A stretch of DNA of 64,000 bases from Desulfovibrionaceae bacterium. GTDB taxonomy: Bacteria; Desulfobacterota; Desulfovibrionia; Desulfovibrionales; Desulfovibrionaceae. The translations under genes and the position numbers were made by a program. The notes under the pieces were generated by a model. That model saw only the letters and a list, made by a program, of their open reading frames with translations. It was not told the DNA's origin and did not search any database. Positions within the stretch are counted from its first letter, which is position 1. Each line of letters begins with the position of its first letter. Positions 17,781 through 41,936 of this stretch are shown one piece after another. The stretch is from positions 62,001 to 126,000 of the forward strand of contig WSYE01000001.1 of assembly GCA_009773665.1 (NCBI GenBank), read 5' to 3'.

Positions 17781-17791
17781 AAGAGGAACGC

Positions 17792-18307: not shown

Positions 18308-18359
18308 CATTATTTATTGACTATTTACATGATGGAACAACGAGCAGAGGGCCGTGAAT

Positions 18360-19547: not shown

Positions 19548-19577
19548 TGTTTTTTCTGTTGTGCTAACGCCGCCGCA

Positions 19578-19627
19578 CTGAACCCCTTCACCTATCACGC
19601 CCCCCGTCTGCCGCCTATTCAGGCGGC
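19578..19627 (+). promoter_or_regulatory. late-promoter/leader element, copy 1 (lysis operon)
   Basis: Motif CTGAACCCCTTCACCTATC at 19578-19596 contains the dyad TGAA-N4-TTCA. After a 13-nt spacer comes a 7-bp hairpin (GCCGCCT, loop ATTC, AGGCGGC; 19610-19627). The same layout recurs at 29436 and 41887. Here a further 11-bp outer stem (CGCCCCCCGTC with GACGGGGGGCG, to 19638) and a TTTT follow, which could also terminate transcription of the cargo gene. It sits before the holin, the place of Mu Plys. Confidence 0.65.
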
Positions 19628-19684
19628 GACGGGGGGCGACCGTTTTGGTGCCGTCGCCTCCACAAACAAACTCATGGAGGCTTT

Positions 19685-20140
19685 ATGCTCGGCATCTTCG
19701 ACATCATCCCCTGGCTCGTCATCATGTCCGCCGGTGCGTTCCTGATTGTTCTGGCCTGGCGCTTCAGGTCCGACATCACCACGTACTGCGACCGCCGCAC
19801 CGGCGCGAGCCCGTTCCGCATGGTCATCTGCGGCTTGGCCGCACTGGCCTGTCTGGCTGTCGTGGCCGCCGTGTCGCCGGTGCAGCTGCCCGTGACCGTC
19901 TACAAGCTCGCCTTGGTGCTCCTGGCGGGCTACTTGGGCTATTGGGCCGACGTGTGGCTGTTCCCGTATTCGCGCCCGGACGGCTACCTGCTCAGCAACT
20001 GGCAGGCCGCGCCGGGCTTTAAGTACTCCGAGCCCGATCACGCCATCGTACCCGGATACGAGACCGTCTTCTCCGCAGCGCTCATCCGCCGGGCGCTCGT
20101 GGTCGGATGCTGCATGCTGGCCGTGGGGCTGGGGCTGTAG
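19685..20140 (+). CDS. putative holin
   Basis: A 151-residue protein with three to four membrane helices (about 7-25, 45-62, 70-88, and one at the C-terminus). The pattern YLGYWADVWLFPYSRPDGY and the closing stretch with ALIRRALVVGCCMLAVG fits the putative holin family seen in Mu-like prophages of Desulfovibrio and pseudomonads. It is the first gene of the lysis block, with GGAGG before the ATG. Holins form the membrane lesion that triggers lysis. Confidence 0.75.
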   Translation: MLGIFDIIPWLVIMSAGAFLIVLAWRFRSDITTYCDRRTGASPFRMVICGLAALACLAVVAAVSPVQLPVTVYKLALVLLAGYLGYWADVWLFPYSRPDGYLLSNWQAAPGFKYSEPDHAIVPGYETVFSAALIRRALVVGCCMLAVGLGL

Positions 20141-20142
20141 CC

Positions 20143-20844
20143 ATGCGCGCTTGGCTTGAGCGAGTTGCCAAGAACCTGGAGATGGCCGGGGCCATCGTTT
20201 GGATGGCCTTCATGGCCGGGATCGGACTTGCTTTGGGCGTGAGCCTGGTCATCGCCGTAGTGAGCAAGCACGCCCACGCTGAAACCGTCCCGCCCCAGGC
20301 CGCGCGCTTCAAGGCGGACCTCACCCGGTGCGCCCGCGTCCATTGGGGCCTGGAGGCTCCGGTGGCCACCTTCGCCGCCCAGATCCACCAGGAAAGCCGC
20401 TGGAACCCCAACGCGGTCTCGCCGGTGGGGGCCAAGGGCCTTACGCAGTTCATGCCCGCAACGTCCGCCTGGATGGGCAACGTGGACCCGGAGCTGACCG
20501 CCAACCAGCCTTTCAACCCCGGCTGGGCGCTCCGGGCGCTCTCCGCCTACGACAAATGGCTGTGGGACCGCGTCCAGGCGTCCACGCCCTGCGACCGCAT
20601 GGCCATGGCCCTTTCCGCCTACAACGGCGGCCTGGGCTGGGTGCAGCGCGACAAGGCCCTTGCCCGGCAGCGCGGCGCGGACCCGTTAGAGTGGTTCGGT
20701 TCCGTGGAGCGGTTTAACGCCGGGCGGAGCGCCGCAGCCAGCCGGGAAAACCGGGGCTATCCGCGCCTCATTCTGCTGACATTGGAACCGCTTTACGTCC
20801 AGGCCGGATGGGGCCGGGGGGTATGCCATGATGACCTACGCTAA
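20143..20844 (+). CDS. lytic transglycosylase endolysin (SLT domain)
   Basis: A 233-residue protein. An N-terminal membrane helix (about 18-42, ending near Ala-His-Ala-Glu) could act as a signal-anchor. The SLT fold follows, with catalytic glutamate in QIHQESRWNPNAVSP, then GAKGLTQFMPATSAW and SAYNGGLGWVQRD. It cleaves the peptidoglycan glycan strand. It lies 2 nt after the holin gene and overlaps the spanin gene by 17 nt. Confidence 0.92.
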   Translation: MRAWLERVAKNLEMAGAIVWMAFMAGIGLALGVSLVIAVVSKHAHAETVPPQAARFKADLTRCARVHWGLEAPVATFAAQIHQESRWNPNAVSPVGAKGLTQFMPATSAWMGNVDPELTANQPFNPGWALRALSAYDKWLWDRVQASTPCDRMAMALSAYNGGLGWVQRDKALARQRGADPLEWFGSVERFNAGRSAAASRENRGYPRLILLTLEPLYVQAGWGRGVCHDDLR

Positions 20845-21391
20845 GGCGATCGCCGTCGCGCTCGTCGTGGTGGCCGTCTACGCGGCGGGCGTGTGGGTGG
20901 GCTACGACAAGGCCAACGACCGCCGCAAGGCCGAGGTGGCCGCCCTCACCGCCGGATATGCCGAAGCATACGCCAAGGCCGAGAAACAGGCCCGCGAACA
21001 CCTGGAAGAGGAAACCCAGCGGGCCAATCTGCTGGCCGTGCAGCTCATGGGCGCAAAGCGCCAGATCGCCGCCCAAACCCAAGACATCACCCGGAGGATA
21101 CGCCATGCCGCGCAAGCTGGTGCTGCTGGTTGCCGCTTTGGCCCTGATTTCGTGCGCCTGTACAACGAAGCCCTCGGCTATCCCGGCGGCGGTGCTCTGC
21201 CCGAGGACGCCAGTGCCGCCGGAACTGACCACGCTGGCGGACCCGCCCCCGCCGCTGGCCCCGGATTACTTCCAGACCGACCCGTGACGCCTGAAGACCT
21301 GCTGGCACACGCCCGTGACTACGGTGCCTGGGCCAGGGGCATGCGGGCGCAGCTGGCCGCCCTGGGCGAGCTGCTGAAGGAGGGGTTGTAG
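20828..21391 (+). CDS. Rz-like inner-membrane spanin
   Basis: A 187-residue protein with one N-terminal membrane helix (residues 5-26) and a long charged, coiled-coil-like region (about 30-90). This is the usual form of the inner-membrane spanin that joins inner and outer membranes at the last lysis step. It is longer than lambda Rz (153 aa), with a Gly/Ala/Pro-rich part. A separate frame inside it encodes the lipoprotein partner Rz1. Confidence 0.8.
   Translation: MMTYAKAIAVALVVVAVYAAGVWVGYDKANDRRKAEVAALTAGYAEAYAKAEKQAREHLEEETQRANLLAVQLMGAKRQIAAQTQDITRRIRHAAQAGAAGCRFGPDFVRLYNEALGYPGGGALPEDASAAGTDHAGGPAPAAGPGLLPDRPVTPEDLLAHARDYGAWARGMRAQLAALGELLKEGL
21105..21287 (+). CDS. Rz1-like outer-membrane spanin lipoprotein, nested in Rz
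   Basis: A 60-residue frame lying wholly inside the Rz gene. The ATG has its own GGAGG at 21093-21097. The product has a lipoprotein signal (MPRKLVLLVAALALISC) with lipobox Leu-Ile-Ser-Cys, then a short proline-rich body (PVPPEL, DPPPPLAPDY). Those are the hallmarks of Rz1. It pairs with Rz across the periplasm. Confidence 0.88.
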   Translation: MPRKLVLLVAALALISCACTTKPSAIPAAVLCPRTPVPPELTTLADPPPPLAPDYFQTDP

Positions 21392-21673
21392 ATGGACACC
21401 GCCGCGTTGATCGCCCTCATCCTGAGCGCCCTGCTGACCCTGGCGGGCGCTCTTGGGGGCTTCATCGTCAAGCACCTGAACGACTCGGTGCGGACGCTCC
21501 AGGAGCGTTGCACGGAGCTGGAAAAATCCCAGGCCGAACAGGCCCAAAGAACCGCCGAAAACTACCTGCGGCGCGAAGACTGCCACCGGCAGACCGATGC
21601 CGTGGTGGATAGGCTCAAGGGCATCGAAGACAAGCTGGACCGCGTCATCGAACGCATAGGAGTGAAGGCATGA
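21392..21673 (+). CDS. membrane-anchored coiled-coil phage protein
   Basis: A 93-residue protein with one N-terminal helix (about 5-27) and a long charged helix after it (TLQERCTELEKSQAEQAQRT). From memory, similar proteins (Mu gp25-like/DUF2730 style) stand between lysis and head genes in Mu-like phages. It starts next to the Rz stop. Function unknown. Confidence 0.7.
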   Translation: MDTAALIALILSALLTLAGALGGFIVKHLNDSVRTLQERCTELEKSQAEQAQRTAENYLRREDCHRQTDAVVDRLKGIEDKLDRVIERIGVKA

Positions 21674-21879
21674 GTGACGAACACGTCGAACCGGCCACGC
21701 CGGAGATGCAGGCCCTTAGCCGCATCGAAACGAAGGTGGACGGCGTGGCCGGGTGCCTGAAGAACATCGAGCGCCGCGCCGTCGTGGCCGGTGCCGTTGC
21801 TGGCGGTTTTTCGGGCGGCCTGGTCGGGGGCATCGTGTCCACGGCCATTCTCTCCATCAAGATCAAGATGGGGTGGTAA
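21670..21879 (+). CDS. small membrane phage protein
   Basis: A 69-residue protein. The N-terminal half is charged and helical; the C-terminal half is a Gly/Ala-rich membrane helix (AVVAGAVAGGFSGGLVGGIV). The start overlaps the gene before in an ATGA. Its stop adjoins the GTG of the DUF1804 gene. No family is recognised, but gene order fits Mu gp26-like proteins. Confidence 0.65.
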   Translation: MSDEHVEPATPEMQALSRIETKVDGVAGCLKNIERRAVVAGAVAGGFSGGLVGGIVSTAILSIKIKMGW

Positions 21880-22380
21880 GTGGCTCACGCCCGCGAAAAG
21901 CGCGAAGCGGTCAGAGCCGCCTACATCCACGAGCGCATGCCGTTGGATATCGCCGCCCTCAAGTCCGGGGTGCCGCCGGGCACGGCCACGCGCTGGAAGC
22001 GCCGGGCCAAGGAGCTGGGCGACGATTGGGACAAGATGCGCGCCGCGTGCCTGCTGGCCGGAGACGGCGTGGAGTCCGTGGCCCGGCAGATGCTGGCCGA
22101 TTACGTGGTGCAGTACAAGGCGATCATGGACGCCATCAGCACCGACGAAACCATCCCGGCGCACTCCAAGGTGCAGATGCTGGCCAGTCTGGCGGACAGC
22201 TTCAACAAGACGGTGGCCGCCAGCAAGCGCGTGCTGCCGGAAACCAGCGAACTGGCCACGGCGCTGAACGTGCTGGACCGGCTTTCCAACTTCATCCGCG
22301 AGCACTTCCCGCAGCATGGCCCGGCCTTCGTGGAGGTTCTGGAGCCGTTCGGCGGCGAGCTGGCGCGGGCGTTCGGGTAG
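21880..22380 (+). CDS. DUF1804 protein (Mu gp27-like, small terminase role)
   Basis: A 166-residue protein with the DUF1804 opening: REKREAVRAAYIHERMPLDIAALKSGVPPGTATRWKRRAKELGDDWD, where a helix-turn-helix is followed by the GDDWDK block. The family always precedes the large terminase in Mu-like phages and probably acts as DNA-recognition (small) terminase. Start is GTG. An AT-rich piece lies between it and the large terminase, which usually follow each other directly. Confidence 0.85.
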   Translation: MAHAREKREAVRAAYIHERMPLDIAALKSGVPPGTATRWKRRAKELGDDWDKMRAACLLAGDGVESVARQMLADYVVQYKAIMDAISTDETIPAHSKVQMLASLADSFNKTVAASKRVLPETSELATALNVLDRLSNFIREHFPQHGPAFVEVLEPFGGELARAFG

Positions 22381-22398
22381 TTTGTACTGCTGTCTGGC

Positions 22399-22620
22399 TC
22401 AGTACAACTCTACATATAGGCCGTTGAGTGTTGATTTTAGATTATGTTCAGCGTCATCGCACTTTTCAAGAAAAGACTCGACAGTGTTGCGTTGAACATT
22501 TTTGACATGCCAAAGCGTTTCTCCGTTTGGGAACGGATTGCGTGATCTTACGATAAGATATTTTTTCTCGACAAAATACGTCACTTTGACCCCGATGTGC
22601 TCAAAATCTTTCTTCAGCAT
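22399..22620 (-). CDS. small AT-rich minus-strand cargo gene
   Basis: A 73-residue charged protein (MLKKDFEHIGVKVTYFVEKK at the start, VESFLEKCDDAEH near the end), encoded against the phage genes in AT-rich DNA between the two terminase genes. No Shine-Dalgarno is clear. A longer frame would need a TTG at 22644 and would overlap the large terminase. No family recognised. Its base composition marks it as inserted DNA. Confidence 0.4.
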   Translation of the reverse strand: MLKKDFEHIGVKVTYFVEKKYLIVRSRNPFPNGETLWHVKNVQRNTVESFLEKCDDAEHNLKSTLNGLYVELY

Positions 22621-22625
22621 TTGGA

Positions 22626-24278
22626 ATGAATATGCACATAGCAAAACAAGTCAAGATTGCGAGGAAGGACTTCCTCCTCGAACTGGCCCGCATGGCCGAC
22701 GGCCTGCGCCGCACCATCGAAGCCGAGTGCGAGGGGTTCTCGCCGGACGCTGCCGCCGCCCGCAAGCGCCGGGAGCGCGCCTGGAGGGACTTCTCGTTCT
22801 TCCGCCGCACCTACTTCCCGCACTACTGCCGATACGCCGATTCCGTGCTGCACGTCTGGCTGGAAGATACCCTTCCCGCCCTGGTGGCCAACCCCGCCGG
22901 GCAGCGCCTGGCCGTGGCCGCTCCGCGCGGCGAGGCCAAGTCCACCATGGTCAGCCTGATCTTCGTGCTCTGGTGCATCCTCACCGGGCGCAAGCGCTTC
23001 GTGATCCTGGTGGCCGACGCCTTCGAGCAGGCCGCCACCCTCCTGGAAGCGGTGAAGGCCGAACTGGAGGCCAACCCGCGCCTTGCCATGGATTTCCCCG
23101 AGGCGTGCATGCCGGGCCGCGTCTGGAACGTGGGCGTGGCCATCACCGCCACCAACGTGAAGCTCCAGGCGTTCGGCTCCGGCAAGCGCATGCGCGGCCT
23201 GCGCCACGGCCCGCACCGCCCGGACCTGGTCATCGGCGACGACCTGGAGAACGACGAGAACGTCAAAAGCCCGGCCCAGCGCGACAAGCTGCAAAGCTGG
23301 CTCTCCAAGACCGTGCTGAACCTGGGCGAGGCCGGGGACACCATGGACGTGATCCTGGTGGGCACGGTGCTGCACTATGATTCCGTGTTGTCGCGCCTGC
23401 TGGCCAACAAGCTCTGGCGGTCGCGCAAGTTCCAAGCGGTCATTGAATGGCCGCACCGCATGGACCTCTGGGACCGCTGGGAGGAAGTGCTCCTTGCCGA
23501 AGGCGAGGAAGCCGCCCTGGACTACTACCGCGACCGCGCCCAGGCCATGGACGAAGGCGCGGTGGTCAGCTGGCCCAGCGCCCGGCCCATCTACAAGCTG
23601 ATGGTCAAGCGCGCCCGCGACGGCCACGACGCCTTCGACTCCGAACAGCAGAACGACCCCCTGGCTGGAGACGGCGCGCCCTTCGCCACCTGCATCACCT
23701 TCTGGGTGGAGCGCCGCAACGACTGGATGTTCTTCGGCGCGGTGGACCCATCCCTGGGCAAGTCCGGCGCGGGGCGCGACCCCTCGGCCATCCTGGTGGG
23801 CGGCTATTCGCGCGAGCGCGCCGTGCTGGACGTGGTGGAGGCGTCAATTCGCAAAAGAGTCCCTGACCGCATCATCGAAGACGTGCTGGCCTTCCACGCG
23901 CAGTACCGCTGCCTGCTCTGGGCCGTGGAGTCGGTGCAGTTTCAGGAGTTCCTGCGCACGGAGCTGATTCGTCGGGCCATGGTGCGCGGGATGACCATCC
24001 CGGCCAGGGCCGTGACCCCCATCGCGGACAAGACCCTGCGCATCGAGGCCATGCAGCCCTATTTCGCCCAGGGGCGCATCCGCGTGCATAGCTCGCAGCA
24101 CACGCTCGTCGCTCAGCTCCGGCACTTCCCCAAAGCGGACCACGACGACGGCCCGGACTGCCTGGAGATGCTCTGGCAGGCCGCCACACGAGGATTCACA
24201 ACCATGAGCTTCACCGCCGTGCCCAAGGGCGGCGGGCGTTCCATGATTCGGAGGGGACATGCTGACGACGATGATTGA
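22626..24278 (+). CDS. terminase large subunit, Mu gp28-like
   Basis: A 550-residue packaging ATPase/nuclease. The ATPase part has an atypical Walker A (AAPRGEAKST, about residues 98-107) and a Walker B-like DLVIGDDLEND. The nuclease part shows FGAVDPSLGKSG and a later DDGPDCLEML with acidic residues. It packages phage DNA by headful, starting from an integrated copy as in Mu. Its start (ATG AAT ATG) has no good ribosome site and lies at the edge of the AT-rich insert, so the original start may have been changed. Confidence 0.92.
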   Translation: MNMHIAKQVKIARKDFLLELARMADGLRRTIEAECEGFSPDAAAARKRRERAWRDFSFFRRTYFPHYCRYADSVLHVWLEDTLPALVANPAGQRLAVAAPRGEAKSTMVSLIFVLWCILTGRKRFVILVADAFEQAATLLEAVKAELEANPRLAMDFPEACMPGRVWNVGVAITATNVKLQAFGSGKRMRGLRHGPHRPDLVIGDDLENDENVKSPAQRDKLQSWLSKTVLNLGEAGDTMDVILVGTVLHYDSVLSRLLANKLWRSRKFQAVIEWPHRMDLWDRWEEVLLAEGEEAALDYYRDRAQAMDEGAVVSWPSARPIYKLMVKRARDGHDAFDSEQQNDPLAGDGAPFATCITFWVERRNDWMFFGAVDPSLGKSGAGRDPSAILVGGYSRERAVLDVVEASIRKRVPDRIIEDVLAFHAQYRCLLWAVESVQFQEFLRTELIRRAMVRGMTIPARAVTPIADKTLRIEAMQPYFAQGRIRVHSSQHTLVAQLRHFPKADHDDGPDCLEMLWQAATRGFTTMSFTAVPKGGGRSMIRRGHADDDD

Positions 24279-25872
24279 TCGCCTCAAGGCCGCCTTCAGC
24301 GCCTTCAAGGGCCAGTCCCGCGACGAAATGCAGTCAGCATCCCTGGCCGCGCTGCACAACCGCTATATCGCCAGCCTCACCGGCGGCCTGACCCCGCGCA
24401 AGCTGGAATCCATCCTGGCCGCCGCCGATCAGGGCGACATCGTGGGCCAGCATGAGCTGTTCGCGGAGATCGAAGCGCGCGACGAACACATCCACGCGGA
24501 GCTGTCCAAGCGCCGCCGGGCGCTGCTCTCCGTTCCCTGGCAGATCAAGCCGGGCCGCGCGGGCGACAAGCGCGCAGAGGACGTGGCCGCCGCCGTGCGC
24601 GAGCAGGTGCTTTCCATCCCGGACTTCGAGGACGCCATCCTGAATGCGGCTGACGCCATTGGCCACGGGTTTGCCTGTCTGGAGTTCGAGTGGGGATTCA
24701 GCGGCAAGCTGCATGTGCCGCAGGCGCTGCACTTCCGGCCTCAGTCCATGTTCCAGCTGGCCCCGGACTTCATGACGTTGCGCCTGCGCGACAACACCGT
24801 GGAGGGCCAGGAACTCTGGCCCGGCGGTTGGATCATCCACCGGCATGCGTCCATGTCCGGGTGGCTGCCACGCACCGGCTTGTTCCGGGTGCTGGTGTGG
24901 ACCTACCTGCTCAAGCAATACTGCAGGGGCGATTTCGCCGAGTTCCTGGAGATTCACGGACTGCCGCTTCGCCTGGGCAAGTTCCCGCCCGGCACTCCCG
25001 AGGAGGAGCAGGCCACGCTGCTCAAGGCGTTGCAGGCCATCGGGCATGACGCCGCCGGGGCCATCCCTGACAGCATGATGATCGAATTCCACGACGCAGC
25101 GCGCGGCAGCGAGAAGCCGTTCATGGCCATGCATGAGCTGTGCGAAAAGGGCGCGAGCAAGGCCATCCTGGGCAGCACCCTGACCACGGACACGCAAGGA
25201 GTGGGCAGCCAGGCGCTGGGTGAGATCCACAACGAAGTGCGCCTGGACATCCTGAAGAGCGACGGTCGCCAGCTCGGCGGGACGTTCACCCGGCAGTTGT
25301 GCGCGCCGCTGGCGTTCCTGAACGAAGGCGTGACCGATCCCGGCCTGATGCCGGTGTTCGCCTTCGACTTCAACCGCCCGGAGGACTTGGAGAAGCTGGC
25401 CAATGCGCTGCCCAAGCTGGTGCAGGTAATGGATATTCCCAGAGCCTGGGCGCACGAGCGGGCGGGGATTCCCGTTCCCGAGGACGGCGAGCCGGTGTTG
25501 CAGCTCAAGGGACAGGCGAAGTCCGAGGCCGCAGAAAGCGACCCTGGGCAGCCCGGCCAAAAGGGGAAAGCCGAAGCCACGGTAGCCTTGTCGGCTGAAG
25601 ATGGCGGCGATGGACCGCTGTTCCCGGATCAGGCCGCCGTGGATGCGGCGGACGTGCCGGACGCGGTGCTGGCGGCCCTGGCCAGGGACATGCTGGCCCC
25701 GATCATCGCCGAGGCCTCGGACGGCATCGGGCCGCAGGAGCTGCTGGGCAAGCTGGCCGAGCTGTACCCCAAGATGGACACCACGGGCCTGGAAGAGCTG
25801 TGCGCGCGGGTGCTGTTTGTGGGGGAACTGTGGGGGCGCTTGAGCGCCCAGGCTGAGTCCGGGGCGGACTGA
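24259..25872 (+). CDS. portal protein, DUF935 (Mu gp29-like)
   Basis: A 537-residue protein of the DUF935 portal family: LTPRKLESILAAADQGD, then HELFAEIEARDEHIHAELSKRR, and EIHGLPLRLGKF and GSQALGEIHNEVR further on. It should form the dodecameric ring at the head vertex. It overlaps the terminase end by 20 nt. The C-terminal 130 residues are acidic and low-complexity. Confidence 0.93.
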   Translation: MLTTMIDRLKAAFSAFKGQSRDEMQSASLAALHNRYIASLTGGLTPRKLESILAAADQGDIVGQHELFAEIEARDEHIHAELSKRRRALLSVPWQIKPGRAGDKRAEDVAAAVREQVLSIPDFEDAILNAADAIGHGFACLEFEWGFSGKLHVPQALHFRPQSMFQLAPDFMTLRLRDNTVEGQELWPGGWIIHRHASMSGWLPRTGLFRVLVWTYLLKQYCRGDFAEFLEIHGLPLRLGKFPPGTPEEEQATLLKALQAIGHDAAGAIPDSMMIEFHDAARGSEKPFMAMHELCEKGASKAILGSTLTTDTQGVGSQALGEIHNEVRLDILKSDGRQLGGTFTRQLCAPLAFLNEGVTDPGLMPVFAFDFNRPEDLEKLANALPKLVQVMDIPRAWAHERAGIPVPEDGEPVLQLKGQAKSEAAESDPGQPGQKGKAEATVALSAEDGGDGPLFPDQAAVDAADVPDAVLAALARDMLAPIIAEASDGIGPQELLGKLAELYPKMDTTGLEELCARVLFVGELWGRLSAQAESGAD

Positions 25873-27116: not shown

Positions 27117-27252
27117 GTTGGGCGCTGACGCTTTGTGGATGGCGAGGCCTCCCACCCGCTTTCGCGGAAACCTCACATAGCGCTCCAGGCTGAGTTCCCA
27201 GGCTACGGCAGGGAGAGTTTCACCGTGTCACATCCACAAGGAGAAGATAAGC

Positions 27253-27732
27253 GTGATTCAGATCGAAGTAAATACTTCCGGCGTGGATGCCACCCTGGCC
27301 CGCATCGTCTCCCTGGGCGCGAACATGACCCCCATCACCCGCGCGCTGGCAGGCATTCTGGCGGACATCCCGGAGCGGGCTTTCGCGGCGCAGGCCGACC
27401 CGGTGACGGGCGCGCCCTGGGCGCAGCTCTCGCCGGTGACGGTGAAGCGCCGGGGCAGCTCCTCGCCGATCCTCCAGGTGAGCGGCATCCTGGCCGGGTC
27501 CATCCAGGCCGAACACGGGGCGGACTTCGCCCGAGTGACCACGGCCACGAAGTACGCGCCCACGCATCAGTTCGGGGCCAAGAAGGGGCAGTTCGGGCGC
27601 ACCAGGCGCGGCGGGCCGATTCCCTGGGGAGACATCCCGGCAAGGCCGTTCTTTGGCGTCGGTTCGGCTGACGAAGCCGAAATCGAGCAAACGGCGTTAG
27701 AAACGCTTCAACGGGTTTTGGCGGGTGGTTGA
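27253..27732 (+). CDS. virion morphogenesis protein, Mu gpG-like
   Basis: A 159-residue protein of the phage virion morphogenesis (gpG/tail_S) family: AQADPVTGAPWAQLSPVTVKRRGSS, then LQVSGILAGSI and ATKYAPTHQFGAKKG, with PWGDIPARPFFG near the end. GTG start with AAGGAGAAG upstream. The 136 nt before it hold no gene. It is the last backbone gene before the cargo at 27837. Confidence 0.88.
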   Translation: MIQIEVNTSGVDATLARIVSLGANMTPITRALAGILADIPERAFAAQADPVTGAPWAQLSPVTVKRRGSSSPILQVSGILAGSIQAEHGADFARVTTATKYAPTHQFGAKKGQFGRTRRGGPIPWGDIPARPFFGVGSADEAEIEQTALETLQRVLAGG

Positions 27733-27836
27733 TGCGGGTAAGGCGGCAGGATGGTTTCTAACGGGGGACTAACTAGAAAAAATATCCCAGCTCATACTTG
27801 ACGGCCACCACGAACGCCTTGGGAATCGCCTTAAGC

Positions 27837-29174
27837 CTATTGAGAACCGACCTTAATTTCTGTTTTCCCACACCTAGTCCATGCCTCAATATGGGACAAT
27901 CCTTTTGATCGAATATACTGCACTGGAATCATTACATGATCCTGTCCCGCTGGTATTGTGATATCAATGCATTTGTACTCATCTCCGGTGCCTTCGACTG
28001 TGCACACTTTGAATTTTCCAGGCTTTGAAACAATGTCTGCGCACCCTTCGCTCGCCCAACCTTTGAGAGAGAACGGTCTTATTTTGATTTCACATTTGAC
28101 ATCATCCTTGGATGGGCAATCCAATCGGACTCTTAAGCTTGTATCCGATTTGATCTTGAACAAACGAATTCCTTGCCCATCATGGTCTTTGTCAACCAGC
28201 GCTGCGTAAGGAAAATCTAAGGTTACAGACGGACCGCAGAGCGCAATATTATTTTCGAAATAGACAACGTCTGACTTTGAAATGCTTATTTTCCCTTGTG
28301 TATCTGTGTCGTTGCATACCGGAACTATGTCATATTCGACATGAATAGAGTTTGCAGGGATGTTTAGCAACCACCCAGCATTATTATCGATGGGGACACT
28401 ATTGACAACTCTCACCAGCCCTCTGGGTTCAACTCGTAAAACTACGACTTTGTCTACCGTCGGAACGCGTCTTGGCGTTAAGCGCAGCTTGATGCCACGT
28501 GTCATGTTGATTTGGCCATCACGTGGGTCCGCAAAGCGCTCTTTGCCGTATTCCTGAATACTGACCTCGGAAAATTCAATATATTTAGACGTGAAGTTGA
28601 ATTTCGAATATGTATTTTCTTCGTCAAAAATTCGAAAATAAGAGTCTACATACCCTTTGTGTGTGTCGATGGCTCCAGCAAGCGCAAGTCTGTATGAACT
28701 AAATCCACCTGACAATGTAATTTTATAGTCCCCGTCACCCATGTCGTCAACATGAACGCCAGAACCCTGAGCCTTTAATTCAACTGCTCCTTCACTGGGA
28801 AACCTTACATTGACAACCCTATCAAAAAGCAATTTTCTGACAAAATTTATTTGTAAAAAAGCAACTCCATCACAATCAATATCCATTTTTGCTGATTCTA
28901 CATGATCAAGACTTACAGAGTTAACGCCACAATACGACCCGGTTATGCTTTTTATTGGAAGTGCACATGTCAAATCAACATAAGAAGAGTATGACGTGTA
29001 CGCGACAAACGACAATGAAGCAAGACAGTATGTATAAAATATGCTTTTTTGAATTTTTGCGTACAACTTGTATCCAGTGACAATGAAGGCAAGTGCTACA
29101 ATCCCAATAATTACATAAACATCATGCACGCCAAGCCGCTTAATTGCGTCAATAAATAGATGTACAAGTTCCAC
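27837..29174 (-). CDS. AT-rich cargo: large membrane-anchored protein, unknown
   Basis: A 445-residue protein read against the phage genes. Two N-terminal membrane helices (about 18-36 and 44-64) are followed by about 380 residues rich in beta-type sequence and cysteines, placed outside the inner membrane if the short loop is as I read it. No family recognised. The start is GTG with a weak GGCGGA upstream. Base use is far more AT-rich than the head genes on either side. Its position between the gpG and protease genes fits an accessory gene carried in the prophage. Confidence 0.65.
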   Translation of the reverse strand: MELVHLFIDAIKRLGVHDVYVIIGIVALAFIVTGYKLYAKIQKSIFYTYCLASLSFVAYTSYSSYVDLTCALPIKSITGSYCGVNSVSLDHVESAKMDIDCDGVAFLQINFVRKLLFDRVVNVRFPSEGAVELKAQGSGVHVDDMGDGDYKITLSGGFSSYRLALAGAIDTHKGYVDSYFRIFDEENTYSKFNFTSKYIEFSEVSIQEYGKERFADPRDGQINMTRGIKLRLTPRRVPTVDKVVVLRVEPRGLVRVVNSVPIDNNAGWLLNIPANSIHVEYDIVPVCNDTDTQGKISISKSDVVYFENNIALCGPSVTLDFPYAALVDKDHDGQGIRLFKIKSDTSLRVRLDCPSKDDVKCEIKIRPFSLKGWASEGCADIVSKPGKFKVCTVEGTGDEYKCIDITIPAGQDHVMIPVQYIRSKGLSHIEAWTRCGKTEIKVGSQ

Positions 29175-29211
29175 ATTTCCGCCATCTAGTGATGTTCAAC
29201 AAGGAGCTATC

Positions 29212-29421
29212 GTGTCCACAATGGACAGTGTGACAAAAGGCACCCCCTGGTTATGTGCATTGGATAGCCAGGGCAAACATATTCGCTCTTTCCATTCACA
29301 TTATGGCATAGGAAGTGCTAAATTCGCAAGCACCCTCCGGCAAAGTTGTTCAGTTTATAGTAGATATTTCTGTGGCTTATTGAAATACTTGAAAGTAACT
29401 CCAATACCCTCCATGTATTAG
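29212..29421 (+). CDS. possible small cargo protein
   Basis: A 69-residue frame starting at a GTG with AAGGAG 5 nt upstream, divergent from the large cargo gene with a 37-nt gap. It has no recognisable motif, and the sequence is Ser/His/Tyr-rich. The good ribosome site is the main support. It ends 14 nt before the repeated late element. Confidence 0.35.
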   Translation: MSTMDSVTKGTPWLCALDSQGKHIRSFHSHYGIGSAKFASTLRQSCSVYSRYFCGLLKYLKVTPIPSMY

Positions 29422-29435
29422 TGGCGGGTTGTTTC

Positions 29436-29485
29436 CTGAACCCTTTCACCTATCACCCCCACCCCCGCCGCCGCTAAAGCGGCGG
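29436..29485 (+). promoter_or_regulatory. late-promoter/leader element, copy 2 (head operon)
   Basis: Motif CTGAACCCTTTCACCTATC (29436-29454, dyad TGAA-N4-TTCA), 13-nt C-rich spacer, then hairpin CCGCCGC, loop TAAA, GCGGCGG (29468-29485). GC and the ATG of the protease gene follow directly, with no Shine-Dalgarno. Copy 3 has the same lengths and loop but different arm sequences that still pair. Position equals that of Mu promoter PI. Confidence 0.7.
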
Positions 29486-29487
29486 GC

Positions 29488-30663
29488 ATGCGCAACGCGA
29501 CACCCACTCCCACTTCTTCGACCCTGACGGCGGCCCTGGCCGTCCAGTTGACCCCGGACGCTCCCGGCCTGCCCGAGGGCGTCAATGTCCAGCTCTTCCC
29601 TGACGGCGAGTTCTCGGCCCGTGATGGTCGTCCGGCCACCGTGGAAAAGTGCGAGGCCACGGCCTGGCGCATGGACGCCGACATCGCCGCCGCGCTCATC
29701 GCCCAGATCGAATCGCGCGAGACGCCCCTCTTCGTCGATTACGAGCACCACACGCTCACCGCCAAGGACTCCGGCCACAAGGCCGTGGCCGCCGGATGGA
29801 TCGAAGCCCTGGCCTACATCCCCGGCCAGGGCCTGTTCGCCAGGGTCGCCTGGACCGACACCGCCCGCCAGCACATCCAGGCCGACGAATACCGCTTCAT
29901 CAGCCCGCTTTTCGCGTTCGACCTCAAGACCGGGGCCGTGCGCACTCTCATCAACGCAGCTCTCACGAACAACCCGGCGCTGGATGGCATGGCCGCCGTG
30001 GCCGCCGCGCTGGAAATCACCCGAATGGAGGAGAACATGAGTTTCAAGAAACCTGGCACCGGCGAGGTCGCCCTCAGCGAGGACTTCGCCGAGCGGCTGC
30101 GCTGGATGTTCAACCTGCCCGTGACCGCCACGGCGCAGGAGATCATGGCCGCGCTGGACGCGGCAAAGGCCATGCTGGCCACCGATGGCACCGCCGACAC
30201 CGGCGTCGACGTGTTGGCCATCATCCAGGCCAAGGACACGCAGATCGCGGCCCTCACCGCCCAGGCGGGCCAGCCTGACCCCACCAAGTTCGCCCCGGTT
30301 GCCGCCATCGCGGCCCTCACCGAGGAGAATACCGCGCTCAAGGCCAAGCTGGCCGAAGCCCAGACTGCGAATGGCACCGCCGCCCTGTCGGCGGAAATCC
30401 AGGCCGCCCTGGCCGACGGGCGCATCCACAAGAGCCTGGAAGGCTGGATCACCGGGCTGGCCGCGTCGCATCCCGCCGAGGCCCAGGCCTACCTGGAGAA
30501 GGCCGCGCCCGTGGCCGCGCTCACCAGCATGCAGACCAGCGGGACGAACATCCCGCCCGGCGCGCCCCAGGGCGTGGCCGCCCTGTCGGCGGAAGAAAAG
30601 GAAGCCGCCAAGCTCCTCGGCATTTCCGAGGACGATTACGCTAAATCCAAGGAGGCCAAGTAA
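29488..30663 (+). CDS. phage protease with C-terminal scaffold, Mu gpI-like
   Basis: A 391-residue protein. The N-terminal part is a Mu-type prohead protease (LFVDYEHHTLTAKDSG, then GWIEALAYIPGQGLFA and YRFISPLFAFD, with NAALTNNPALDGM). The C-terminal part, from about residue 184, is a helical Ala/Glu/Lys-rich scaffold. In Mu these are gpI and the internally started gpZ. The ATG lies 2 nt after a hairpin and lacks a ribosome site. It is the first gene of the head operon. Confidence 0.92.
   Translation: MRNATPTPTSSTLTAALAVQLTPDAPGLPEGVNVQLFPDGEFSARDGRPATVEKCEATAWRMDADIAAALIAQIESRETPLFVDYEHHTLTAKDSGHKAVAAGWIEALAYIPGQGLFARVAWTDTARQHIQADEYRFISPLFAFDLKTGAVRTLINAALTNNPALDGMAAVAAALEITRMEENMSFKKPGTGEVALSEDFAERLRWMFNLPVTATAQEIMAALDAAKAMLATDGTADTGVDVLAIIQAKDTQIAALTAQAGQPDPTKFAPVAAIAALTEENTALKAKLAEAQTANGTAALSAEIQAALADGRIHKSLEGWITGLAASHPAEAQAYLEKAAPVAALTSMQTSGTNIPPGAPQGVAALSAEEKEAAKLLGISEDDYAKSKEAK
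30037..30663 (+). CDS. scaffold protein from internal start, Mu gpZ-like
   Basis: An in-frame ATG inside the protease gene has GGAGGAG at 30027-30033, a far better ribosome site than that of the full-length gene. It would give a 208-residue scaffold protein identical to the protease C-terminus, as gpZ is made in Mu. The internal start is read from the sequence; separate production is inferred. Confidence 0.75.
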   Translation: MSFKKPGTGEVALSEDFAERLRWMFNLPVTATAQEIMAALDAAKAMLATDGTADTGVDVLAIIQAKDTQIAALTAQAGQPDPTKFAPVAAIAALTEENTALKAKLAEAQTANGTAALSAEIQAALADGRIHKSLEGWITGLAASHPAEAQAYLEKAAPVAALTSMQTSGTNIPPGAPQGVAALSAEEKEAAKLLGISEDDYAKSKEAK

Positions 30664-31575: not shown

Positions 31576-31587
31576 GACTAACGTCCC

Positions 31588-34189: not shown

Positions 34190-34213
34190 GCCCAAAGAGA
34201 TAAGGAGAACGCC

Positions 34214-34588: not shown

Positions 34589-34591
34589 CCC

Positions 34592-34900: not shown

Positions 34901-35070
34901 GGGAGCTTAGGCTCCTGGAAACGGCTCTCGCGGGCCGTGCTTTCTCACGGGCCGAGATACGCGCCATGACCATGCCTGAAATCGAATCCTTCGTGAGCAT
35001 CTTAAGCGGCAAGCCCGGCCCGTCCGGGACAGGGCGGCGCATGGTGCCGGTGCGCCGCAAGGGGCGTTAA
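34897..35070 (+). CDS. chaperone extension frame (GT-type)
   Basis: The frame from 34897 codes 57 residues (RELRLLETALAGRAFSRAEI, then TMPEIESFVSILSG). It can be reached by the -1 shift at 34870 from the upstream gene, joining after codon 95, or by its own ATGA-coupled start. In long-tailed phages such extensions bind the tape measure protein. I think the frameshift product is the main one. Confidence 0.75.
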   Translation: MRELRLLETALAGRAFSRAEIRAMTMPEIESFVSILSGKPGPSGTGRRMVPVRRKGR

Positions 35071-37170: not shown

Positions 37171-38528
37171 TGGCCTGGAAAGACACCCTGCTCGACGCCA
37201 CCTTCCGGGGCGTGAAGTTAAGCGTCCTCAACACCGATGACGCTGCCGAACGCGCCCAGGTGCGCCACGAATACCCCTACCGGGACGGGGCCGAGGTGGA
37301 AGACCTGGGGCGGCGCGCCCGCACCATCCACGTCCAGGCCATCGTCTGGGGCAAGGAGTACGAGACGGACCTGCGCAAGCTCCTGGAGGCCCTGGACAAG
37401 CCTGGGCCGGGCGAGCTGATCCATCCGGTGTTCGGTTCCATCAATGTCAGTCTGGCGAGCCATCACGTCGCCCATCACGAGGACAACCCGGACAGCGCCC
37501 AGCTGACCCTGGATTTCGTGGAGGCCGAACCGGACGCGCCGTTCTTCGCAAACGGCAGGACTCCCGCCGCCAAGGCGTTGGGCAACGCCGGGAAGCTCCA
37601 GGGCAGCCTGGAGCTGCTGCGCAAGCTGAACCTCTCCGCCGTGCAGAAATGGGGTGGCAAGCTTGCCACCACCATGTCCCAGGTGGCGCGCGGCGACCTG
37701 CTGGGCGCGGCGCGAGGCGTGTACACCAACGCGGCCAGCTTGGCGGGCATCACCGTGCCTGCCATGCCGGACTTCACCGGCATGAGCCAGGGCGGCCTGA
37801 TGGGTACGGCGCAGGCCCTGGTTTCCAGCGCCGTCCAGCTGTCCACCATGTCCAACCCGTTCGGCCAGTTCGCGGGCCTGGCCGACTTCTCCAATCTGCT
37901 GCCCCGGTTCTCATTAAGTCCCGACGGCCAGACCACGTCCTACGCCATGACCCCTGCCAGGTATTCCGGCACGCCCGTCAGCGGGCCGATCACCGGGCAG
38001 GCCGAACCGCGCCCGCTGCTGGTGGTTCCGCCCGCATCGGAAGCGCGCCAGGACGCCGCGCCGGATATGTCCACGCCCACAGGCCAGGGCCACGCCATGG
38101 CAGCGGGCACGCTCAATCTGGCCTCCGCCATGGCCGTGGCCAGCGCCGCGTCCAGCGCGTTGACCGCCGAAGTAAGCGCCCCCACGCTCACCCCGGCGGA
38201 GGTGGAGGCCGTGGTGGGCGTCAGCCGCCAGCGCCTCCAGGACAGCATAGACGATCACCGCGCGCTGTTCCCCACCCATGAAGCCTATCCCATCACCGAG
38301 GAGCTGCGCACTGCCGCCCTGGCTGTGCAGGACATGGGCGCGCAGGTCATCCGCCTGCATCCGCCCCTGGTGGCGCAGACCGCCCCGGCCCTGTGCAACC
38401 TGCACCTGATGGCCCACTGGCTCTATGGCGACTTCACGCGCGCGGACGAACTGGCCCGCCTGAATCCGGGCCTGCGCAACCCCAACTTCGTGGCTCCCGG
38501 CCAGGTGCTGAGTGGCTTCGCCCGCTGA
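37170..38528 (+). CDS. DNA circularisation/tail protein, Mu gpN-like
   Basis: A 452-residue protein. The N-terminal 90 residues match the gpN circulation-protein domain (WKDTLLDATFRGVKLSVLN, then RAQVRHEYPYRDGAEVEDLG and TIHVQAIVWG). A LysM-like ending is possible (LARLNPGLRNPNFVAPGQVL). In Mu, gpN is a tail/baseplate hub protein that also rides with the injected DNA in some views. It overlaps gpP by 17 nt. Confidence 0.88.
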   Translation: MAWKDTLLDATFRGVKLSVLNTDDAAERAQVRHEYPYRDGAEVEDLGRRARTIHVQAIVWGKEYETDLRKLLEALDKPGPGELIHPVFGSINVSLASHHVAHHEDNPDSAQLTLDFVEAEPDAPFFANGRTPAAKALGNAGKLQGSLELLRKLNLSAVQKWGGKLATTMSQVARGDLLGAARGVYTNAASLAGITVPAMPDFTGMSQGGLMGTAQALVSSAVQLSTMSNPFGQFAGLADFSNLLPRFSLSPDGQTTSYAMTPARYSGTPVSGPITGQAEPRPLLVVPPASEARQDAAPDMSTPTGQGHAMAAGTLNLASAMAVASAASSALTAEVSAPTLTPAEVEAVVGVSRQRLQDSIDDHRALFPTHEAYPITEELRTAALAVQDMGAQVIRLHPPLVAQTAPALCNLHLMAHWLYGDFTRADELARLNPGLRNPNFVAPGQVLSGFAR

Positions 38529-39621
38529 GGACCGCATCACCCTGCGCGTGGCCGGTGGCGAGCACCGCGACTGGACCTCCTATTCCATCGACTCGGACCT
38601 GCTCACCCCGGCTGACGCCTGGCGCGTGTCGCTGGGCATCCCGGCGCAGAAGATTCCGGCAAGCATCCGCCCCTGGGCGCAGGTGGAAGTGCTCCTCGGC
38701 GGGGACATCATTCTTACCGGGCGAATCGACCGCATCGAACGCGAGCTGGCCAAGGACACCCAGACCTTGAGCCTGTCCGGGCGCGACGGGGCGGCGGTGC
38801 TGGTGGATTGCTCCGCGCCGATCTTCACCCAGCGCGAAGCCACGCTTCAGGAAGTGGTTGACCTGGTGGCCAGACCGCTGGGCATCCTGCGCACCGACGT
38901 GCGCACAGATGGGCGTAAGGAGAAGGTGGCCATCGAACCGGGCATGACCGCCTGGGACGCCCTGAAGCAGGCCTGCGAGGCCAATGGCTGCTGGGCCTGG
39001 TGCGAACCGGAGGGCACGCTGGTGGTGGGCGGGCCAGACTACGCCGCCGCACCCGTGGCCACGCTGGTTACGACCTTCGACGGCAAGGGCAACAACACCT
39101 TGAGCCTGTCCGTGCGCGAGGATGTTTCCGGGTGCTATTCCGAAGTGACGGTGCTGGGCCAGACCCACGGCACCGAGGACCAGGAAGGCAAGAACAGTAT
39201 CATGCACCGCGAGACCGACCCAGACGTGCCGGGCTATCGCCCGCTCATCATCGCCGAAGGCGAGTGCGACGACGTGGCCGAGGCCGAGCGCCGGGCCAAG
39301 AAGACGCTGATGGATAGCCGCCTGGAGGGCTTCGAGATCGCGGCCAGGGTGCGCGGCCACAGGGTGGGCGGGCAAAGCGGTGAACCGTGGAAGCCAGGCC
39401 AGCGCGTGCATGTGCTGAGTGAACCTGACGGGCTGGACGGCGTGTATTTCCTGATGAAACGGGTATTCCTCGGCGGCAAAGATAAAGGCCGCGTGACCGA
39501 GCTGACCTTGAAAGAGGACGGCGTCTGGCTGCCGGAGCTGGCAGACAAGGCCAAGTCCAGGAAAAAGGGGAAGAAAGGCCCCGGCGAGGCGGTGGATTTA
39601 TGGACGACACGTCCCGCATAG
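38512..39621 (+). CDS. baseplate hub protein, Mu gpP-like
   Basis: A 369-residue protein: ITLRVAGGEHRDWTSYSIDSDLLTPADAW at the start (over the usual gpP opening), then ILTGRIDRIERE and QVVGRPL-like LVARPLGILR. It is the gp44/gpP baseplate hub, like P2 gpD and T4 gp27. GTG start, overlapping gpN. It overlaps gp45 by 22 nt. Confidence 0.9.
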   Translation: MASPAEDRITLRVAGGEHRDWTSYSIDSDLLTPADAWRVSLGIPAQKIPASIRPWAQVEVLLGGDIILTGRIDRIERELAKDTQTLSLSGRDGAAVLVDCSAPIFTQREATLQEVVDLVARPLGILRTDVRTDGRKEKVAIEPGMTAWDALKQACEANGCWAWCEPEGTLVVGGPDYAAAPVATLVTTFDGKGNNTLSLSVREDVSGCYSEVTVLGQTHGTEDQEGKNSIMHRETDPDVPGYRPLIIAEGECDDVAEAERRAKKTLMDSRLEGFEIAARVRGHRVGGQSGEPWKPGQRVHVLSEPDGLDGVYFLMKRVFLGGKDKGRVTELTLKEDGVWLPELADKAKSRKKGKKGPGEAVDLWTTRPA

Positions 39622-40250
39622 ACGCGCGGATCGCGCGGGCCTTCGGGCGCGTGCGTCTGGCCTTTCGGGCTGTGCTTACCGCCCTGGACACCAAGCCCGG
39701 CGTGCAGCTCACCCAGGCGAGCGGCCTGAGTGGAGAGAAACTCCAGGCGTCGGAGCTGTTCCAGCACTTCGGCTTTACCAGCGCGCCGCCCGCCGGGACG
39801 CAATGCATCGTGCTGCCCCTGGGGGGCAAGACCGCCCACTCGGTCATCGTGGCCACCGAGGCCGGGGCCTATCGCATTGACGGGCTGAAGAGCGGCGAGG
39901 TGGCCGTGTACAACCAGTCCGGGGCCAAGATAGTGCTGAAGGAAGAGAAGGTCATCGAGATTGATTGCGACGAGCTGCGGATAAAGGCCGGAAAGTCAAT
40001 CAGGATGGAAGCGCCGGAGATCGAGGCTTACGCCAGCGAGCATATGGGGTTGTATGCCCCGGCGTGGGACATGGGAGCGGAAGGGGAAGGCGACAGCGAG
40101 GCCCTGTGGCGCGGGAGCGTGCATTTTACGGGGACCAGCCGGGCGGACGAGGATCATGTGAGTGGTGAGGTGTCCTTGCGCCACCACGTCCACCGGGAGA
40201 ATGACGGCGGGCAGCTGACAGACGAACCAAGTGGCAGGAGAGAACTATGA
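39600..40250 (+). CDS. baseplate spike protein, Mu gp45-like
   Basis: A 216-residue protein of the gp45/GpV spike family: RIARAFGRVRLAFRAVLT at the start, then ELFQHFGFTSAPPAGTQCIVLPLGG, and LRHHVHRENDGGQLTDEP near the end. It forms the trimeric tail spike that pierces the outer membrane. The last residues (SGRREL) may be changed by the cargo insertion that begins just behind it. Confidence 0.92.
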   Translation: MDDTSRIDARIARAFGRVRLAFRAVLTALDTKPGVQLTQASGLSGEKLQASELFQHFGFTSAPPAGTQCIVLPLGGKTAHSVIVATEAGAYRIDGLKSGEVAVYNQSGAKIVLKEEKVIEIDCDELRIKAGKSIRMEAPEIEAYASEHMGLYAPAWDMGAEGEGDSEALWRGSVHFTGTSRADEDHVSGEVSLRHHVHRENDGGQLTDEPSGRREL

Positions 40251-41453
40251 ATTCAACATTGAGTCATTTCCTGGGCTCACAGTGTCTAAGACAAGAGAAA
40301 CTAAGAAGAATTTGTCTCTCATATGTCCAGGGCCAGTTCCAATAGATTTAACTTGTGCGAGTGTAGCAGAGTATCTTGATCCAATCTTTGCTTGCAGCGC
40401 GGATTCAAACGCTTCATCAAGGATATGTCCTGAATAAATAGAACCACTGGATGAAACAATCTCAAATCGTCGGGTTCTAATGTTGAGGCCCGTAAGAATG
40501 CCATTTGTAGATATGTTAACCGTTGCGGACTCAATTGATTTGACTATGGCAAGCTTTTCAACAATATCTCTCCTGCTGTTGTTGGCAACTACTTTGCCTA
40601 CTCTCTTAGGAGATGCATATTGGCATGAAAAACCAACTCCAAAACTATCAACTGTCCCGAGAAATTTTGAAAACCTTGAAACAATACGACTCTCAGACGG
40701 ATTAAGGTACGTTTCAAGCGAGTCACTATCTGGCTTTGCATTGACAATTTTAACAAAACTAAGGATGGCTTCTTCTATGAGTGTGAAACTTGGATCAAGA
40801 TAATGAGCGACGGACCTCAACTGTAAGCCAAAAGAGCTAGGAAATGAGAAGGCAACATTTAATTCTGTTTGATTTTTTATATATTTAGGAACATTCTTAT
40901 GTTTTTGCCCGCTGTGTTTCAATCCAAGTTCATCGATAAAATCTTGAAGATCATTTATGATGCGGCCAAGGTATCTTGCTGAAGCCTCATGTTTCTCGTC
41001 ATTCACGTCGAGCATAACATTGAGAATCCCCCTCTGCGTGCTGTCCGCAATGTATTTAGGCTCAGCATAGTAAGGGACTGTCTTTTCATTTCCAGCGTTT
41101 TCAATACGCTCCCCTTGAAGAGGAAGCCAGTCGTCAGGTATCTCTAGGGAGAATATAGGTTGAATTTCTGATTTTTTTTCTGGTATATTTGTTACGACAA
41201 AAGAAAATCCATTCACTGTATTTTTAAATGTTTCTTTAAAGTCGACAAACCCCTTTCTAAGCTTTTCGATAGCATCGCTAGAGATCGGAGAATAAAGCCA
41301 TTTGTGCTCTGTAGAAGTTTCCTCTACAGAAACAACAATATACACCTGATTCGCTTCATTTGTACATGTGAACAATAGCGGAATGTCATAAAACTCAAAC
41401 ACTTCTTGAGTGGTGAGTTTTCCGAGGAATGTAAAGTCTGGGAGGTGTAGCAT
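40245..41453 (-). CDS. AT-rich cargo pair: large protein, possible defence gene
   Basis: A 402-residue soluble protein. The opening FLGKLTTQEVFEFYDIPLLF reminds me of the DUF6575 family, but this is memory only. I chose the ATG at 41453 (MLHLPDF), which lies 10 nt after the stop of the small partner gene; a longer frame from 41534 would overlap it. The C-terminal half contains GVGFSCQYASPKRV and NISTNGILTGL. No catalytic motif seen. It stands on the minus strand between gp45 and gp46 in strongly AT-rich DNA. Confidence 0.65.
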   Translation of the reverse strand: MLHLPDFTFLGKLTTQEVFEFYDIPLLFTCTNEANQVYIVVSVEETSTEHKWLYSPISSDAIEKLRKGFVDFKETFKNTVNGFSFVVTNIPEKKSEIQPIFSLEIPDDWLPLQGERIENAGNEKTVPYYAEPKYIADSTQRGILNVMLDVNDEKHEASARYLGRIINDLQDFIDELGLKHSGQKHKNVPKYIKNQTELNVAFSFPSSFGLQLRSVAHYLDPSFTLIEEAILSFVKIVNAKPDSDSLETYLNPSESRIVSRFSKFLGTVDSFGVGFSCQYASPKRVGKVVANNSRRDIVEKLAIVKSIESATVNISTNGILTGLNIRTRRFEIVSSSGSIYSGHILDEAFESALQAKIGSRYSATLAQVKSIGTGPGHMRDKFFLVSLVLDTVSPGNDSMLNS

Positions 41454-41463
41454 GGCATCTGTC

Positions 41464-41838
41464 TCAAATGTCTGTAAAATGTCCCCAAGGACAATCCACT
41501 TCAACAGGAACCCACCAAGTAAAATGGTGTTCAATTCCCGGTAGAGGCGTGTGCTTTATTCTGCCTACCGCTTCTTCGAGGTCCGCGTAAAGCAGTTGTT
41601 TTTTCCTCAAAGAAGGGACTCTTCGCCTACTCGCTTCGCACTTCTCCAAGGACTTGGCGACAGACAAACCACATGCCATGCACATGTCATCATAGACTTG
41701 GCCAGGAAATCTCACACCTTTGCAGGTAAAGCTCTCACTGATTGGCTTGTCGTTGCTAATAAATATATAAATCTCTCCATCCGCCCCAGATGCATCCTCA
41801 GGTGGGCAGTTAGGTGGAAAGAATTCAGGCCAAGACAT
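41464..41838 (-). CDS. AT-rich cargo pair: small partner protein
   Basis: A 124-residue protein: WPEFFPPNCPPEDASG near the start, MACGLSVAKSLEKC in the middle, VPSLRKKQL, and HHFTWWVPVEVDCPW at the end. I recall a family of small bacterial proteins with the same run of motifs (Pro-Pro-Asn-Cys-Pro-Pro-x-Asp-Ala, Gly-Leu-Ser-Val, His-His-x-Thr-Trp-Trp) encoded next to a larger partner; function unknown. It is the first gene of the pair, and only 10 nt separate it from the larger gene. Confidence 0.65.
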   Translation of the reverse strand: MSWPEFFPPNCPPEDASGADGEIYIFISNDKPISESFTCKGVRFPGQVYDDMCMACGLSVAKSLEKCEASRRRVPSLRKKQLLYADLEEAVGRIKHTPLPGIEHHFTWWVPVEVDCPWGHFTDI

Positions 41839-41886
41839 TAACTATCTACCTTATTAGGAAATTCACCAGAAGACAATGCTGGTTCA

Positions 41887-41936
41887 CTGAACCCCTTCAC
41901 CTATCTCTCCGCCCCCTTGCGCCACTAAAGTGGCGC
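41887..41936 (+). promoter_or_regulatory. late-promoter/leader element, copy 3 (baseplate operon)
   Basis: Motif CTGAACCCCTTCACCTATC (41887-41905), 13-nt spacer, hairpin GCGCCAC, loop TAAA, GTGGCGC (41919-41936), then GC and the ATG of gp46 with no Shine-Dalgarno. Motif matches copy 1 in all 19 positions. It lies between the cargo pair and the baseplate genes, comparable to Mu PP. Confidence 0.7.

Follow-up and report, generated by a model that had tools for sequence, protein, structure and literature searches.

In phage Mu, promoter Pm and the late promoters (lys, I, P, and mom) depend on activators of the Mor family, have a dyad centered ∼31.5 nucleotides (nt) before the −10 hexamer, and lack a −35 element. 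Mu promoters lie before the lysis genes and before I (PMC4390567, PMC4287176, PMC4461284), and at Pm the role of a −35 is taken by a Mor dimer on a dyad that spans −51 to −36 and has its center at −43.5 (PMC4390567, PMC4287176). We analyzed a 64,000-nt stretch of DNA from a Desulfovibrionaceae bacterium (GenBank assembly GCA_009773665.1, contig WSYE01000001.1, positions 62,001 to 126,000), hereafter the window, which contains a Mu-like prophage with three copies of an element consisting of a 19-nt box followed by a hairpin. Judging from the DNA sequence, these elements are probably Mor-activated σ70-type late promoters nested in hairpins, which would insulate the late operons from read-through in the prophage. 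By sequence and geometry, the window shares with Mu a Mor-family activator, the dyad spacing, the lack of a −35, and the placement before lysis and I. On the other hand, no hairpin with TA in its loop abutting the ATG is seen before lys or I in Mu, and the late activator of Mu is C, whereas here one Mor-family gene was found.

Late promoters located in inhibitory hairpins have a precedent in phage T4, where they are described for genes e, soc, 49, and I-TevI. For gene e, the DNA encoding the hairpin's 5′ strand contains the late promoter, and the inhibitory structure therefore arises only in early transcripts, which are longer (PMC3014915). T4, however, uses its own late sigma factor, and its hairpins hide a Shine-Dalgarno sequence or an AUG, whereas the window elements would combine an activator-dependent promoter with predicted leaderless starts and an extra, terminator-like class. 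In the hairpins that protect IS10 and IS50 from read-through, structure in incoming transcripts likewise hides a start, but these serve transposase genes and not late phage promoters.

The box, CTGAACCCCTTCACCTATC, which contains the dyad TGAA-N4-TTCA plus CCTATC, is found on the + strand at 19578–19596 and 41887–41905, and with one C/T change at 29436–29454. This recurrence, pointed out in an earlier sequence-only reading of the same DNA, is far beyond chance (three matches with up to three mismatches versus 0.01 expected, with none of 100 shuffles reaching three), and in the organism's own genome (2.99 Mb, 66% complete) no other place matches the Y-form of the box at fewer than two mismatches. 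The hairpins of elements 2 and 3, CCGCCGC-TAAA-GCGGCGG (29468–29485, + strand) and GCGCCAC-TAAA-GTGGCGC (41919–41936, + strand), contain the −10-like hexamers TAAAGC (29475–29480) and TAAAGT (41926–41931). As had been claimed, they end exactly 2 nt before an ATG. Element 1 has a longer hairpin (19598–19638, + strand; 18 base pairs (bp), −40.5 kcal/mol) with the −10-like TATTCA at 19616–19621, followed by the T-rich tail ACCGTTTTGG (19639–19648, + strand). The 13-nt spacer and 7-bp arms ascribed to all copies are thus present in the window, except that the 7 bp of copy 1 are only the tip of its 18-bp stem. In relatives, the spacer varies by one or two bases.

Across relatives, pairing is maintained by compensatory change. 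In 22 elements, 89.6% of the cells are paired versus 73.7% after shuffling, 23 cells are changed on both sides versus 7.6, and the covariation score is 0.459 versus 0.202, values that none of 500 shuffles equaled. Two weaker measures, pairs with a double change and further pair types, were matched by 10 and 166 of 500 shuffles, respectively, and slid control alignments had 34–56% of cells paired. The rows of alignment A3 were picked from known elements and not at random, and a partial misregister of the L134 and DMS3 rows depresses the count. Alignment A1 excludes L021, a duplicate of L015, and L024, which is an I copy. These compensatory changes support the view that structure, and not only sequence, is conserved.

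Position is conserved as well. Using a rule that requires a perfect stem of at least 6 bp with a loop of 3–7 nt, ending between −4 and +3 of an in-frame ATG, but no TA, we found a hairpin at 21 of the 30 family I loci (15 of 24 once the window and five close relatives are set aside). The same rule was positive for 29 of 366 open reading frames (ORFs) of at least 250 amino acids (aa) on both strands of 16 prophages, a set that includes the I genes; of the 11 cases with a TA loop among these ORFs, 10 were I genes. At I loci outside the family in a phylum search, it was positive in 0 of 27, one of which has no usable ATG. A gp46 hairpin scan gave 8 of 20: G060 was missed by the frame setting, L254 and L256 by loops longer than 7 nt (their hairpins were seen by eye), and L253 ends at a contig edge. 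A search of related Mu-like prophages with a covariance model, as the sequence-only reading had proposed, recovered 53 hits with E <0.01 in 849 kb (46 loci; 13 hits are training elements), all before late operons. Strong copies are therefore confined to late operon starts, as anticipated. By homology, the following gene is I (19 hits), gp46 (15), holin (11), a lysozyme-like gene (4), a tail tube gene (2), the deleted I of G012 (1), or an ORF ahead of the lysis cluster of phage DMS3 (1). The next-best hit in the window is at 59205 (E 0.015).

Exact box matches occur in 25 stretches of viral contigs. Among 18 records picked for having such matches, G001, G002, G004, G005, G008, G010, and G012 have three each (up to three mismatches) and G015 (71 kb) has two. 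At a limit of one mismatch, the box is present in 11 of 288 genomes of the family Desulfovibrionaceae, that of the window included, and places with box matches include Solidesulfovibrio magneticus UBA7700 and Desulfovibrio sp. DV, both of this family. In the 20 sequences that were mapped, boxes precede holin, I, or gp46 wherever these genes exist; G012 has lost I itself, and in G015 neither holin nor the first box was found. The sequence 3′ of the element is conserved, whereas that directly 5′ of the box differs from phage to phage. The 30 family I loci, which are the best matches among 55 genomes that gave hits, have varied boxes and unrelated stems at the same ATG, such as CATGCCCCCG-TATAC-CGGGGGCATG, CATGCGCCC-TAAAAG-GGGCGCATG, GCCACCG-TAAAAC-CGGTGGC, and GCCCTGG-TACA-CCAGGGC. 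A 17-mer scan of contigs returned 42 stretches, of which only L046, L052, and L069 carry the element by their flanks, the rest looking like chance matches in unrelated DNA. I-protein patterns gave three weak loci in viral contigs, in which a box scan found no match. Internal deletions are apparent in G012 (terminase to T not found), G157 (tape gene not found), and L012 (sheath and tape).

The hairpin is centered on a −10-like hexamer in both of the classes that we distinguish, class L (before I and gp46), with a short hairpin against the ATG and no leader, and class S, described below. Among 20 distinct regions upstream of hairpin-bearing I genes, 18 have TA exactly 12 (eight cases) or 13 (10 cases) nt before the ATG, and none has it at any position from −24 to −14. 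Counted by hand, the dyad center precedes the TANNNN loop hexamer by 31.5–32.5 nt and the ATG (of I or gp46) by 43.5–45.5 nt. By geometry only, this is the layout of a Mor/C-type promoter, namely an inverted repeat near −43.5, a −10, and no −35. The phage encodes a Mor-family protein, the presumed dyad binder (17364–17780, + strand; PF08765, E 5e-15; phrog_836, E 3e-36), which is the single Mor-family match found in the organism's own, 66% complete genome. The idea that these are late promoters of a Mu-like phage with a dyad suited to the Mor-family protein is thus supported at the level of sequence.

Since the spacing between dyad and hexamer is as for Mor in Mu, transcription would start either directly at the AUG or 1–2 nt upstream. 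The mRNAs of I (head protease/scaffold; 29488–30663, + strand; PF10123, E 3.8e-95) and gp46 (baseplate; 41939–42295, + strand; PF07409, E 2.8e-18) are accordingly predicted to be leaderless, which would explain why Shine-Dalgarno sequences are missing before them. The gp46 ORF is listed from an upstream GTG at 41930, and the ATG at 41939 is the one kept in relatives. In class L, the −10 hexamer lies 6–7 nt before the ATG and there is no Shine-Dalgarno sequence, as expected for leaderless genes. Shine-Dalgarno-like pairing is found for two of 21 hairpin-bearing I genes, versus 19 of 26 I genes of the phylum and five of nine family I genes without hairpin, two sets in which the best of several ATGs was taken, favoring detection. 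The exception in class L is gp46 of G061, in which the hairpin surrounds the hexamer and the ATG is ∼20 nt downstream with a GGAG. Earlier, the lack of Shine-Dalgarno had been reported for copies 2 and 3, which stands, while the holin gene after copy 1 (19685–20140, + strand; PF13272, E 5e-36) has its own GGAGG (19677–19681) before the ATG at 19685. Likewise, the assignment of the copies to lysis, head, and baseplate operons holds for holin, I, and gp46, but the gene after copy 3 is gp46, inside the baseplate cluster, and not a counterpart of P.

Class S has 20 members: 14 close lysis copies (that of the window included), four diverged lysis elements, and two tail-tube elements. They have a stem of 13–21 bp (−23.7 to −45.6 kcal/mol) and a T-rich tail, followed by a leader with a Shine-Dalgarno sequence. 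At least four T in 8 nt, starting 0–4 nt after the stem, are found in 20 of 20 (10.4% in random sequence), and at least five in 13 of 20 (3.4% in random sequence), the window copy having five.

Conservation, covariation, geometry, T-rich tails, and adjacency to cargo genes, all read from the DNA, point to a mechanism in which Mor binding, transcription starts, termination, and translational silencing would be combined, with insulation as its purpose and least certain step. The Mor-family protein of the phage would bind the box at about −51 to −33 and activate a σ70-type late promoter whose −10 hexamer (TANNNN) is in the hairpin loop, and transcription would start in or just past the 3′ arm. 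Because the −10 is in the loop, the hairpin is expected in read-through RNA, which would carry it whole, and absent from the promoter's own RNA, which would lack the 5′ arm. Before lysis, the long hairpin and T-rich tail of class S would terminate incoming transcription. Before I and gp46, the short class L hairpin, which abuts or overlaps the ATG, would deny incoming RNA an accessible start or Shine-Dalgarno sequence, while the promoter's own leaderless mRNA would begin at the AUG. In this manner, transcription of the adjacent upstream cargo islands in the prophage state would be kept away from the late genes. This single principle of a nested promoter would account for the covariation, the TA loop, the absent Shine-Dalgarno sequences, the start codons found inside stems in some relatives, and the T-rich tails.

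The sequence-only reading had instead taken CCTATC as the −10, in which case transcription would begin within the spacer and the late mRNA would carry the hairpin at its 5′ end, where it would govern stability or translation. CCTATC is indeed near-invariant in close relatives, and 5′ hairpins are known mRNA stabilizers. However, diverged copies have CCTGTC, CCTTTC, CCTTTTTT, or GTGACC in its place yet keep TA at −12/−13, and with CCTATC as the −10 the dyad center would be near −20 and not −43.5. We therefore rejected this hexamer on the grounds of divergence and geometry. In L132, L133, L150, L155, and L075, moreover, the start codon is inside the stem, so an mRNA carrying the whole hairpin would be hampered, and with the −10 in the loop a 5′-terminal hairpin is quite unlikely.

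An alternative that also places the −10 in the loop is that the palindrome acts as DNA, being extruded or easing melting under supercoiling, with the RNA hairpin incidental. The early promoters of phage N4 use hairpins extruded under supercoiling, and the centering of the hairpin on the −10 in both classes, even where the gene has a leader, would suit such a role. We consider it unlikely: the class S tails would have no function in it, and there are G·T pairs on the coding strand in the lysis stems of G002, G012, and G286, in DMS3 and MP29, and, by eye, in L147 and L154, which are mismatches on the template strand. Least probable is that box and hairpin serve cargo cassettes as a site of recombination or insertion and are not a promoter. 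The sharp border between unrelated cargo and conserved box in relatives would fit, but the element is kept without cargo at two sites of G005 (13 nt from gp45 to the box at site 3; 205 nt in which no ORF reaches 70 aa at site 2), a scan allowing three mismatches found no box on the left side of islands, and the dyad and −10 geometry fits a promoter.

Several observations weigh against nested, insulating promoters. The loop hexamers match TATAAT poorly, nine of the 30 family I loci have no perfect stem, and the I stems of Pseudomonas phages DMS3 and MP29, with five Watson-Crick pairs plus a G·U, fail the 6-bp rule. In class S, many T-runs begin 2–4 nt past the stem, and the window copy fails a stricter terminator rule. 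We also rejected a scheme in which read-through folding hides the lysis Shine-Dalgarno sequence: the opening cost differs by at least 3.7 kcal/mol in nine of 14 leaders (10 of 14 when scored from the Shine-Dalgarno sequence to the AUG) but by <1 in the window. Among the 40 islands that contain an ORF, 20 have the one closest to the element oriented away from the late gene. Finally, no such element is seen before lys in Mu itself, and the 7-bp inverted repeat before Mu I (L182, 9015–9050; equaled in five of 500 crude shuffles) lacks a TA in the loop and stops 6 nt short of the annotated ATG.

Each element of the window is directly preceded on its 5′ side by a low-GC cargo island (17781–19577, 27672–29435, and 40251–41886). 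The islands encode a protein of 397 aa (low-GC gene, 18354–19547, + strand) and one of 445 aa (27837–29174, − strand), neither with a family match, and a DUF6575 protein (40245–41534, − strand) with a weak match to PD-T4-10_B (E 5.7e-6), the only defense match in the window; the first two are candidates for defense-like genes. The stretch from an element back to the previous conserved gene measures 13 to 3534 nt with a GC content of 0.34–0.60, compared with mostly 0.60–0.70 in the window, and 40 of 42 such stretches have an ORF of at least 70 aa. The 148-aa ORFs at site 1 of G001, G004, and G010 are possibly one shared gene and not cargo. We scanned 42 cargo proteins of at least 140 aa (41 of 44 located, plus the DUF6575 protein). 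Among the matches listed (25 of 69 for PADLOC), relatives show type IIG restriction (MmeI-like), ThsA/SIR2, TIR, NACHT, and STAND proteins, as well as matches to Dsr2-like, SLATT, PD-T7-4, and PD-Lambda-2 models. In G002, G008, and G015, a second copy of the gp45 3′ end lies inside a cargo island, as if recombination at the end of gp45 had added cargo.

This arrangement resembles the Pseudomonas Mu-like phages, whose low-GC accessory genes, including anti-CRISPRs, are located in RGP G, one of their regions of genomic plasticity (PMC4378225). In DMS3 (NC_008717), the accessory genes between G and I, an anti-CRISPR gene and a regulator, occupy the same slot as island 2. The element at the right edge is not described in PMC4378225, whose main text contains neither "hairpin" nor "stem-loop" nor "inverted repeat". 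DMS3 has two elements, before I and before the lysis cluster (6-bp stem), and MP29 has an I copy. The DMS3 element and the homology of I, which begins upstream of the annotated start, suggest that the gene starts 126 nt before its annotation (L184, 9338), and an unannotated ORF is indicated before the lysis cluster (L184, 562).

With a looser rule (perfect stem of at least 6 bp, loop of up to 20 nt, ending at most 12 nt from the start), an inverted repeat is present before I in nine of 13 phage records, equaled in 0 to 46 of 500 crude shuffles each; DMS3, MP29, Mannheimia 3927AP2, and Mx4 fail. It measures 10 bp in Pseudoalteromonas HS6 (0/500), 8 bp followed by T6 in Shewanella phage MuM16-1 (1/500), 7 bp in Thiobacimonas P1 (6/500), and 6 bp with an 18-nt loop in Klebsiella ST405-OXA48phi1.1 (13/500), where box, hexamer (TACTGT), and ATG spacing are all kept. 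Pasteurella Pmp9 has GCCCTC-TACTGT-GAGGGC-TTTC before an annotated TTG (46/500). The nested layout may hence reach further than the box, single cases being weak. In MuM16-1 (L190, 1–78 and 549–604), an annotated reverse transcriptase gene lies upstream of I, in the slot used elsewhere for cargo.

We found no published account recognizable as this element in a literature of which subscription journals were mostly outside, so an earlier description of late promoters in D3112, B3, or DMS3 is possible. The available parts of PMC9936078 (RNA-Seq of Fc02), PMC10884400, and PMC10155984 contain nothing on late start sites. The balance tips slightly toward insulated phage promoters of this kind being widespread, with a −10 in the loop of an intrinsic terminator or of a start-codon hairpin, such that one palindrome would block incoming RNA and pass its own, which would let Mu-like prophages park expressed defense and anti-CRISPR genes against lethal late operons. 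Such a compact design would keep lethal late genes shielded while the prophage expresses its cargo, explain missing Shine-Dalgarno sites, and indicate gene starts to correct, in DMS3 too. The element also provides a search handle for cargo islands, whose right edge it marks and several of which contain defense-like genes in relatives, and possibly a one-piece insulated promoter for genetic circuits.

Isolated copies of the box are seen in a few genomes. G040, G044, and G168, which are among the 11 genomes of the family with at most one mismatch, have a single copy, reading CTGAACGCCTTC. In the window's own genome, a box-like CTCAACGCCTTCACCTATC with two mismatches is located on another contig, away from the prophage (G000:C30:12773-12791), and the same CTCAACGCCTTCACCTATC is also present in another genome (G017:C167:2651-2669).

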